From Candidatus Omnitrophota bacterium (GTDB taxonomy: Bacteria; Omnitrophota; Gorgyraeia; Zapsychrales; Fredricksoniimonadaceae), in assembly GCA_903908245.1 (NCBI GenBank), contig CAIVRE010000014.1:95963-134326 (forward strand): a DNA stretch of 38,364 bases, given 5' to 3'. The position numbers and the translations under genes were made by a program. Positions 7,873-10,407 of this stretch are shown here, piece by piece; within the stretch, counting starts at the first letter, position 1; the number at the start of each line of letters is the position of its first letter. The notes beneath the pieces were generated by a model. The model made no database searches. It was not told the origin of the DNA and was given only the letters and a program-made list of their open reading frames with translations.

Positions 7873-10299
7873 TCAACGGATGTCAAGAAGAATACTCCTG
7901 GCGACACTCACAGGCGTAATACTGATAATGTCAGGCACAAAGCCATCAATATGCTGCAGATCAACGGGCAAATTGCCCGGGGAGACGGAAATGCCTTGGC
8001 CGCTGCGCTGTGTCCGCAAATGCAACAATTCCGAATTAAAATTAATACCGCCTAAAGGGGACCCGGAGCTCTCCGGTAAGGCCACGAAAGCCGTTGCCGG
8101 GCTCGTGAATGGATCGACGATCTCAGCCACGACCGTCCTTGTGTCACGGACTCCACCAAATAAAAAGAACCGGCCCTTGTCAACGATCACATTCGTGCCG
8201 AACCATACACGCGCGAGATCCAGCGGTTTTTTGGGATCCGGCACCTTGATGGGGATATCCTGATCCAATAATTTCTCCAAATCTTCCCAGCGCCCGATCA
8301 TCTTTAAGGAACTGAACTCTCCCGTATCAGGATCAAACTCGAACGTCATCGGCGCGTACTCCCTGTTGCCTTCTGCGTTATACCGGGCAATATGCCCTAA
8401 TACCCCGACATTCCCGTTCTCCAGGAGATAAATATTGTTCGCCCCGCCCCACTGATCATCCGCAAACATCTCCTCAAGGACCTTGCCGCCTTCCATCATC
8501 TTTGCCAACAGGCTTTCTTCTTTACCGCCCTCGGCTAATTCAACAAATTTCTTAAGATCCTGAACAATAAAATAACCTATTTTCCCCGGCCCGTATTTTC
8601 CGCCCTGCGGCCGCGTCATGATCAGGATGCGGCCATCCTGCAATACTTCCAGACGAATATCCTTCATCAATAATGGCCCCTGCGCAAGGCGCTTCGCCGG
8701 ATCCAGCCCAATCAGAGTTTCACATTGAAAAAATTCCGAAAAATAAACCAGCCGCGGCGACCCATTGGACAGTTTTTCACCCCGCTCTTCAACCTTGACC
8801 ATCGATATAACAAACGTATTGCCGATCTTTTTAACAGAAGGGTCCTGGGCATTCTCAAAAACCGGAGCACCCTTGATCGGATACCATTTCCCATCCGGCC
8901 CCTGTTGAAAGAACATCACCCGGCTTAATTCACTTGTTCTGTCTTCCACCCTTCCTGCAATGATCGTTGTTTCCTTCTCATCGCCGGGATAGACCCTGGC
9001 CTGGAATATGCTGCTGTTATAAACGTCCTTATCACCGACCCCTGCAAACTCATATACAGCCGCCTGGAGCAGATGCGGGCCGTCGCTTAACTCGTAGTTG
9101 GCAATAAGCTCATCGACCGTAACTGCTTTCCGGGGCCGCTCCGGTCCGGATCCTTTCAGCACGACCTTCGTGCTGAAATCTTTCTCACCGGGCCTGCCCG
9201 CCGCGGCACGCATGGCCTCCTCACCTGTCCGCTGATCAAGTTTCGGCACAACACCCACAATGCCACCCGAGAAATATTTCCTTGGGATCATCTGCCCCGT
9301 TGCAAGATCGTTCTCTTCACGAATATAATTAAATACACCCTTTTGAAGCGCCGCGACATACTGTTGATATATCTTTCCGGCGATGCCTTTATCTTTAACA
9401 TCCACACCGCTGATCTTGTTCTTGTCCATGTAGATCTGCCCCAGCAGGCCTGCGCGCAAGTTCTCTTTATACCATTTCGCCAGGATCATCGAATTGTACA
9501 TCTGCCTCAACTCAATAAAGTTTTTGCCTTCATTAACCTCCCGTTCGATCGCCGGGATCAGGATCTCGCGCGCGATCTGTGCCGATATGCTGCTTAACCT
9601 CCCGGCAGGATCTTTCGACGGCACATCCAGGCCGGAAGGCTCGCCCCCTGAATTCTTCTGCAGCGCGATATAATCTTCCTCCAGCATCACTTTTAAATGT
9701 TTTTCTACCACAAAAACACTATGGTCCTTTTCATACACCGCCGCCATGTCCGGCAAGATCCATATTTTATGGAACGCATCGATCGGGATCTCTGTCGTCC
9801 CATACTCTTGCACAGCCTTGGCGTAAACTTTATCCCAAAACTCCCGCCCCAACGCCTGCTCTGGCGAGATCAACGACGATGTTAACTGCTTAAGCATATA
9901 ATCCTGCAACAACATGTCCCGGCCCATCTGCGTCTGCCCGAAGCCCTGAGGAATGATACGGTCCTTTTCATAAACGGAAAGGTTAACCCATGTGTCTTTC
10001 TCGGGAACCGTCAAAGAAGCCAGGAAATATTTAACCAGCTTCTCAACCTCCCGCCGGAAAGCAGCGCCTTTTAGACCGGCGTCTCCCGCATCTATAATGA
10101 AATCAAATTGTAACGGGTCTTCGGGATGGATGGTGAGCCCCTTGATAAGAGCAGGCGCAAATGCCGGCGTTAACAGGACCTTTGTTCCGGGCTGAGGAAG
10201 ATCAGGCAGGCCTTGTCCGTATCCCATGGAAGAGAACACAAACACGCTTAGAGAAAAGACCATCGCGATGAAATAAGAAAAAATACGGCCTCCCCCCAT
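7873..10299 (-). CDS. exported fusion protein: Omnitrophota-specific N-domain + DUF1861 (GH130-like) beta-propeller + Omnitrophota C-tail
   Basis: About 808 residues. A hydrophobic export segment is followed by a domain at roughly 35-380 with motifs I associate with Omnitrophota proteins: LIKGLTIHPEDPLQFDFIID, EKDTWVNLSVYEKDRIIP, GFGQTQMGRDMLLQDYMLKQ, FHKIWILPD. Residues about 405-735 match DUF1861, a predicted five-bladed propeller near GH130 phosphorylases: IIAGRVEDRTSELSRVMFF, GPLLMKDIRLEVLQDGR, MTRPQGGKYGPGKIGY, DDQWGGANNIYLLENGNVG, LGHIARYNAEG. The last 60 residues return to an Omnitrophota pattern (SPLGGINFNSELLHL, DGFVPDII). The role may be binding or cleavage of mannosides, but catalysis is unproven for this family. 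Start: the frame opens at a GTG (10332) that lies in the likely promoter, so the ATG at 10299 is used; 10263 is possible. Confidence 0.85.
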   Translation of the reverse strand: MGGGRIFSYFIAMVFSLSVFVFSSMGYGQGLPDLPQPGTKVLLTPAFAPALIKGLTIHPEDPLQFDFIIDAGDAGLKGAAFRREVEKLVKYFLASLTVPEKDTWVNLSVYEKDRIIPQGFGQTQMGRDMLLQDYMLKQLTSSLISPEQALGREFWDKVYAKAVQEYGTTEIPIDAFHKIWILPDMAAVYEKDHSVFVVEKHLKVMLEEDYIALQKNSGGEPSGLDVPSKDPAGRLSSISAQIAREILIPAIEREVNEGKNFIELRQMYNSMILAKWYKENLRAGLLGQIYMDKNKISGVDVKDKGIAGKIYQQYVAALQKGVFNYIREENDLATGQMIPRKYFSGGIVGVVPKLDQRTGEEAMRAAAGRPGEKDFSTKVVLKGSGPERPRKAVTVDELIANYELSDGPHLLQAAVYEFAGVGDKDVYNSSIFQARVYPGDEKETTIIAGRVEDRTSELSRVMFFQQGPDGKWYPIKGAPVFENAQDPSVKKIGNTFVISMVKVEERGEKLSNGSPRLVYFSEFFQCETLIGLDPAKRLAQGPLLMKDIRLEVLQDGRILIMTRPQGGKYGPGKIGYFIVQDLKKFVELAEGGKEESLLAKMMEGGKVLEEMFADDQWGGANNIYLLENGNVGVLGHIARYNAEGNREYAPMTFEFDPDTGEFSSLKMIGRWEDLEKLLDQDIPIKVPDPKKPLDLARVWFGTNVIVDKGRFFLFGGVRDTRTVVAEIVDPFTSPATAFVALPESSGSPLGGINFNSELLHLRTQRSGQGISVSPGNLPVDLQHIDGFVPDIISITPVSVARSILLDIR

Positions 10300-10322
10300 T
10301 AAAAGTAATATCTTGTCGTATA

Positions 10323-10352
10323 AGAATACCACTTATTTGAGGGCAATGCCAA
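10323..10352 (-). promoter_or_regulatory. predicted promoter of the DUF1861 fusion gene
   Basis: On the minus strand TTGGCA (10347-10352), an 18-base spacer and TATTCT (10323-10328) with an extended TGG. This is 5/6 and 4/6 to consensus. The frame's first GTG (10332) lies inside it, which argues for the downstream ATG as the start. Confidence 0.5.
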
Positions 10353-10377: not shown

Positions 10378-10407
10378 GCCCTCGCAACTCATTCGAGCTG
10401 CGAGGGC
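10378..10407 (-). terminator. Rho-independent terminator of the coiled-coil exported protein gene
   Basis: A 9-bp perfect stem GCCCTCGCA with its complement, then one mismatch and three more pairs. TTTTTTCTTTT follows on the minus strand. It lies directly after the stop at 10425. Confidence 0.88.

Follow-up and report, generated by a model that had tools for sequence, protein, structure and literature searches.

Among described systems, Chlamydia is known to secrete glycogen enzymes (PMC4829429). For the phylum Omnitrophota, the passages covered of an earlier paper report traits of predation or symbiosis, and long ORFs (open reading frames) whose role is left unassigned (PMC10066038). The enzymes of the DUF1861 family include the MPT proteins of Leishmania, which are classified as CAZy GT108 and have a fold in common with GH130 (PMC8950772). 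In the window analysed here, a stretch of 38,364 nt from an Omnitrophota genome, one gene encodes a DUF1861 domain placed between an N-domain and a C-terminal tail. We propose, with a probability of about 0.78 for the model as a whole, that the two ends form an export carrier frame with nested, exchangeable and partly functional enzyme passengers. The literature searched, which did not extend to preprints, gave no description of this frame, and a carrier system for exporting ordinary cell enzymes is apparently undescribed.

The framed gene of the window (7873..10332, minus strand) can be read as 819 aa from a GTG start or as 808 aa from an ATG at 10299. The ATG is the likelier start, because a candidate promoter, recognised by consensus match only and having an extended -10 element, lies at 10352-10323; residue numbers for the N-domain, DUF1861 and the tail refer to the 819-aa reading. 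The order of parts in the protein is a signal peptide, an N-domain of about 310 residues, a linker, the DUF1861 propeller and a tail of about 60 aa (Table 1). The N-domain and the tail had no match in Pfam or NCBIfam (for the tail, none at E<=1). A strong terminator-like hairpin was observed just upstream of the framed gene, at window 10378-10407 on the minus strand; the gene is thus probably its own transcription unit.

Table 1. Features of the framed gene, in window coordinates
Feature	Position	Strand	Basis
Promoter-like site TTGGCA-18-TATTCT, extended -10	10323..10352	-	Directly upstream of the ATG; consensus scan only
ATG start and predicted signal peptide MGGGRIFSYFIAMVFSLSVFVFSSMGYGQ	10213..10299	-	Sequence
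N-domain, residues 45-357, C-terminal end KYFSGG	9262..10200	-	25 genome copies, alignments, AlphaFold
Passenger region, from ...FSGG to GGIN...	8053..9261	-	Alignment boundaries and passenger swaps in congeners
DUF1861/GT108-like five-bladed propeller, residues 423-743	8104..9066	-	PF08950 match, Asp497 alignment
3' junction word GGC GGT ATT AAT (Gly-Gly-Ile-Asn)	8041..8052	-	Sequence; family-wide synonymous constraint
C-terminal tail, residues 761-819 (59 residues), GGINF...	7876..8052	-	Shared C-terminal end; model pLDDT 86-87 at residues 761-780

An earlier note on this DNA had described a complete DUF1861 propeller enclosed by the two ends, and the profile search bore this out: PF08950 matched residues 423-743 with E=4e-59 over profile positions 11-295 of 296, that is, at full length. 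The residue aligned with Asp497 is D94 of Leishmania MPT-2, which is mutated in the D94N structure 6q4z. The passenger is a predicted GT108/GH130-like beta-mannoside phosphorylase/transferase with the catalytic Asp aligned. Since DUF1861 was present in one of 384 Omnitrophota genomes, namely the source genome, and there inside the frame only, it is most simply regarded as an acquired passenger. The N-domain, on the other hand, was found in 137 of the 384 genomes, so the ends do not occur only with DUF1861. All of the matches listed for the N-domain belong to the same class, to which it is restricted inside the phylum.

The 2.16-Mb source genome harbours 25 ORFs with the N-domain, ranging from 517 to 5163 aa, and the other copies are 43-57% identical to the window copy. 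The tail was found at the extreme C-terminus of 23 of these 25 ORFs, and of 52 of the 56 complete N-domain ORFs in two congeners. In the 80 named loci, which are the best 80 matches of a pattern scan over 84,980 species, 67 of the 73 complete N-domain ORFs had the tail, giving 142 of 154 overall for the source genome, the two congeners and the named loci. Most of the tail-less exceptions in the named loci are split, and the next ORF then carries the tail. The frame reaches about 79 copies in one congener; framed genes account for about 4.6% of the source genome and about 12% of that congener, the latter figure being extrapolated from 28 copies. Of the suggestion that the two ends either follow each other directly or flank other domains, the flanking part held. 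Direct succession was seen in none of the complete copies extracted and only in ORFs cut by contig ends. Two labels of origin were also checked. The Planctomycetales label of locus L121 was rejected; the locus is Omnitrophota, its contig being apparently shared with genome G350, which the genome search puts in the same order. Three IMG/VR viral contigs (L328-L330) carry frame ORFs, L329 and L330 being apparently the same locus, and they are probably host sequence binned as viral. An origin of the frame from a mobile element was rejected, as no phage match was found and the viral contigs with frame ORFs look like host sequence.

The AlphaFold model of the N-domain, based on an alignment of 102 sequences, had a pLDDT of 89 and a pTM of 0.87. 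The modelled fold is apparently new; no PDB or viral structure matched it at E<0.001. In the full-length model the N-domain and the tail were confident and the passenger was not, as is to be expected when the aligned middles are unrelated. The pLDDT and pTM values, together with covariation, lead us to infer that the N-domain and the tail would form one fold.

What lies between the ends is highly diverse. The 188 passengers (at least 60 aa and up to 4748 aa) fell into 137 clusters at BLASTP 1e-6. Among the 57 passengers of the two congeners, a BLAST relative was found for just 2 of the 25 source-genome passengers, and the cytosolic phosphoglycerate kinase (PGK) of the source genome is 88.8 and 89.8% identical to those of the same two congeners. 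The clearest swap concerns L277 (genome G303) and L263 (genome G114). Their N-domains are 91.8% and their tails 85.7% identical, and their passengers (602 and 668 aa) show no similarity (E=9); the change points lie directly behind ...YFSGG and directly ahead of GGID. The source-genome copy L045 and L255 likewise have unrelated passengers between N-domains that are 84% and tails that are 57% identical.

Within single genomes, distances between N-domains correlate with distances between tails (Mantel test, Spearman 0.53 in the source genome and 0.58 in G114, each with 0 of 1000 permutations; 0.29 in G303, 5 of 1000 permutations), and the two ends thus behave as one unit. The tail could also be an independent C-terminal sorting signal of a type IX-like kind, with the N-domain as a separate module rather than part of one carrier domain. 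This would fit other families of the class, in which the same N-domain, with GGIDF kept, is followed by a different helical tail. It is rather improbable given the correlation of the distances, and given that a tail lacking an N-domain was seen only where a locus end truncates the ORF, or directly after an N-domain ORF that is broken. The tails of other genera (e.g. L095, L099 and L136) have 20-40 extra residues, which often end in a short motif, for example LSYSIN, SSLN or ISYN.

The second Gly codon of the GGI[D/N] motif is GGT in 91% of cases (n=128); for the remaining Gly-Ile pairs of these genes the figure is 21% (n=1180). Of 354 aligned columns, this codon stands out most strongly in synonymous usage. 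It sits exactly at the 3' swap point. The synonymous constraint holds for the window site at 8041-8052 and, in 140 relatives, for its counterpart. One possibility is that the 3' junction (candidate sequence GGTGGTATYGAY) is a recombination site, and the codon bias there gives only a hint of direct recombination behind the swaps.

Relatives of the N-domain were also found in 5 of 72,556 plasmid records, all from Streptomyces, with 22-28% identity. The ends proved class-restricted within Omnitrophota and are not, as had been supposed, strictly phylum-specific; among the 72,556 plasmid records and the best 80 loci of the scan, they were not found to be common outside the phylum. Three of the Streptomyces proteins were read (the megaplasmid proteins L331, L332 and L333). 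Each combines a signal peptide with a C-terminal membrane segment and lacks a passenger. Past the end of the N-domain the relatives continue uninterrupted (TYIYGGVDLSRLQL or TMVFGGVDFSKLDV), and YIYGGVDLS spans the junction unbroken. From the way in which the N-domain end runs on, the passenger would seem to break up a single ancestral domain at GG. The real tail scored only 1.8-5.6 bits above a reversed-tail control on these relatives, which makes the argument a weak one. GGIDF or GGVDF also occurs directly before the N-domain in L331, L332 and L333.

About half or more of the passengers had no Pfam match. Those that matched represent dozens of unrelated families, and many are copies of cytosolic proteins. 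Besides DUF1861, the matches include GT5, protein kinase, ABC1 kinase, GluDH with AlaDH, UDPGP, methyltransferases, HATPase, PGK, enolase, glucose-6-phosphate isomerase (PGI), GAPDH, PPDK, acyl-CoA dehydrogenase, methylmalonyl-CoA mutase, AMP-binding, GH116, ankyrin, M48, LMW phosphatase, DnaJ, PGM/PMM, radical SAM, B12-binding, acetolactate synthase small subunit, HrcA DNA-binding, PP2C, TPR and CofD; HEAT and aldolase are further classes. The longest glycolytic series, in L248 (2991 aa), comprises in one ORF the N-domain, two GAPDH domains, PGK, enolase, class-II FBP aldolase and the tail. The passenger of L243 is PGK plus enolase, that of L245 PGK plus a phosphoglycerate-mutase-type domain, and that of L110 two GAPDH domains plus acyl-CoA dehydrogenase. 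Two passengers look circularly permuted: in L306:1345-6030 (G302, contig C8) Enolase_C (936-1250) precedes Enolase_N (1269-1363), and in L046:6615-11258, which encodes GluDH and alanine dehydrogenase, the AlaDH C domain (1020-1152) precedes the N domain (1179-1300).

Framed enzymes occur beside housekeeping copies. A PGK match was obtained in 67 of the 73 genomes of the order, mostly as one unframed copy of about 400 aa with about 490-540 bits, and a minority of these genomes have an additional diverged PGK in a long ORF (about 50-350 bits). Where the surrounding DNA was fetched, most of the long-ORF PGKs had the N-domain and the tail in the same ORF, and the rest were cut by the contig or the stretch. 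Enolase followed the same pattern. In G302 (Candidatus Aceula lacicola), a bin given as 95% complete, the framed enolase was found and no unframed one; the missing copy may be a gap. Unframed PGI is of a compact type of about 430 aa and scores weakly in Pfam (mostly 64-106 bits). Framed PGI, by contrast, is of a long type near E. coli 3nbu (three have 630-666 bits, with a 407+229 split in G115), and thus it was not copied from the resident gene.

A signal-like hydrophobic 10-mer precedes the N-domain in 169 of the 171 framed ORFs with a 5' end, compared with 7.6% of internal control segments. Together with the 188 passengers in 137 clusters, this supports, as far as export is concerned, the earlier note's suggestion of a modular export or surface-display frame carrying a passenger; its proposed check, a search for unrelated passengers between constant ends, likewise turned up the dozens of families listed above. 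On these sequence data an export frame is very probable. The passengers are also poor in cysteine, with about 0.11% Cys compared with 1.24% in unframed soluble ORFs of the same loci. Framed PGK has 0.09% and cytosolic PGK 0.61%; framed enolase has none and its cytosolic counterpart 0.94%. Other genes of the window have 1.06%. Export alone may not explain the loss, because unframed signal-peptide-like neighbours are not Cys-poor (1.33%).

The cysteines that remain are informative. In L248, as in L110 (Candidatus Aceula lacicola), each GAPDH domain has a single Cys, the catalytic one of SNASCTTN. The PGI of L101 keeps its catalytic motifs and has no Cys beyond the signal-peptide region. For framed PGK and enolase we took the catalytic residues to be those of general enzyme knowledge; on this assignment the enolases of L243 and L248 keep their catalytic and metal residues, and the PGKs of the same two ORFs keep their motifs. 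Catalytic residues are lost in the framed PGKs of L245, L250, L252 (some) and L254 (most), so not all passengers are enzymes today. The honest reading of these alignments would be a mixed population, intact and degenerate, and functional enzymes are likely in a good share of the passengers.

Two other explanations bear on these residues. If the passengers were exported folds serving as adhesins, coat or variable surface, with enzyme activity incidental or lost, the extreme passenger turnover within the genus, the degenerate PGKs and the giant framed members of up to 5163 aa would all be expected, and glycolytic enzymes are described as surface adhesins of other bacteria in the part of a paper covered here (PMC6604927). 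We consider this improbable, since catalytic residues are kept while much else diverges, the catalytic Cys of GAPDH was spared from the purge, PGI motifs are intact and several glycolytic enzymes are fused in one ORF. Functionless decaying products of gene capture, or chimeric assemblies, could be suspected because the draft genomes are fragmented, many copies lie near contig ends and a few ORFs are split (L105, L112, L142 and L162). More than 140 ORFs, however, are intact in numerous independent assemblies and agree in the order of their parts, in the Cys purge and in conserved active sites. This makes such an origin extremely unlikely, and we rejected misassembly or gene decay on these grounds.

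A point against the export carrier is that PGK, GAPDH and acyl-CoA dehydrogenase depend on nucleotides or CoA, which one would not expect outside cells. The framed proteins might be effectors that are delivered by injection into a partner or prey cell and act in its cytoplasm, which contains ATP, NAD and CoA. The presence of cofactor-dependent enzymes, kinases, phosphatases, methyltransferases and ankyrin, HEAT and TPR passengers would agree with this, as would the predatory or symbiotic traits in the covered passages on Omnitrophota (PMC10066038) and the sugar enzymes secreted by Chlamydia (PMC4829429). It is nevertheless unlikely: the signal peptides look Sec-type and cleavable, unlike one-step secretion signals, and the Cys purge argues for a long stay outside a reducing cytosol.

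We favour the export carrier, which would work as follows. A Sec signal peptide would take the framed protein out of the cytoplasm, and the N-domain and the C-terminal tail would act jointly as one carrier unit, with the passenger nested between ...FSGG and GGI[DN]... as an interchangeable cassette, in many cases copied from a cytosolic protein. Loss of Cys outside catalytic positions would let the passenger fold and, in some cases, probably work outside the cytoplasm. The carrier would stay at the outer envelope or cross it, with the passenger looping out, and a dedicated machine of the outer membrane or of secretion would presumably recognise it; a search for SprA matched none of 36 genomes, and control genomes likewise had no match. 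As to the final place of action, we infer that the passenger would work at the envelope, in a compartment shared with a partner, host or prey cell, or on metabolites or polymers of that cell. Omnitrophota are, to our knowledge, suspected of predation or symbiosis, and we know of no isolate of the phylum so far. Action of the exported enzymes on a partner cell is a tentative reading, at somewhat less than even odds. More speculative still is the proposal that this Omnitrophota lineage runs part of central carbon metabolism (glycolysis and sugar-polymer turnover) outside the cytoplasm on a dedicated carrier, which would capture, cysteine-purge and exchange cytosolic enzymes, with up to five glycolytic domains per exported polypeptide.

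The frame would give a large share of the unannotated long Omnitrophota proteins a common, testable basis. Metabolic enzymes fitted for extracytoplasmic work would challenge the assignment of glycolysis to the cytosol by default in genome-based metabolic reconstructions, which would miscount PGK, enolase or PGI in framed form. With swap points of this precision, the carrier could be explored as a protein-display scaffold.

The known systems differ from the frame in various ways. The giant ORFs reported for Omnitrophota come from the same phylum and are very long with few annotated domains, but they exceed 20 kb and have transmembrane helices and adhesion domains, and the passages covered name no common frame or passenger enzymes (PMC10066038). 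In autotransporters and two-partner secretion a dedicated carrier part also holds an exported passenger; the framed proteins scanned individually had no beta-barrel or TPS match in Pfam, and their N-domain is helical/beta without a PDB fold match. Polymorphic toxins likewise join a constant trafficking part to exchanged payload cassettes, as in the passenger swaps. The payload of the frame, however, is internal, nested between constant ends with a conserved tail rather than C-terminal, and the payloads identified are mostly housekeeping (metabolic or signalling) enzymes, not toxins. By analogy, the use of the exported enzymes would most likely resemble glycogen enzyme secretion in Chlamydia trachomatis, likewise a member of the PVC group with exported enzymes of sugar metabolism; GT5, phosphoglucomutase and UDPGP are found among the framed passengers as well. 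The Chlamydia enzymes (GlgA and others) are individual substrates of type 3 secretion and have no common carrier domain (PMC4829429). Type IX cargo resembles the frame in its signal peptide, its conserved C-terminal module, the very diverse cargo between them and the many copies per genome. Pfam and NCBIfam gave no match for the tail at E<=1, so that by these profiles it is not a Por/T9SS C-terminal domain, and the frame adds a constant N-domain of 310 aa.
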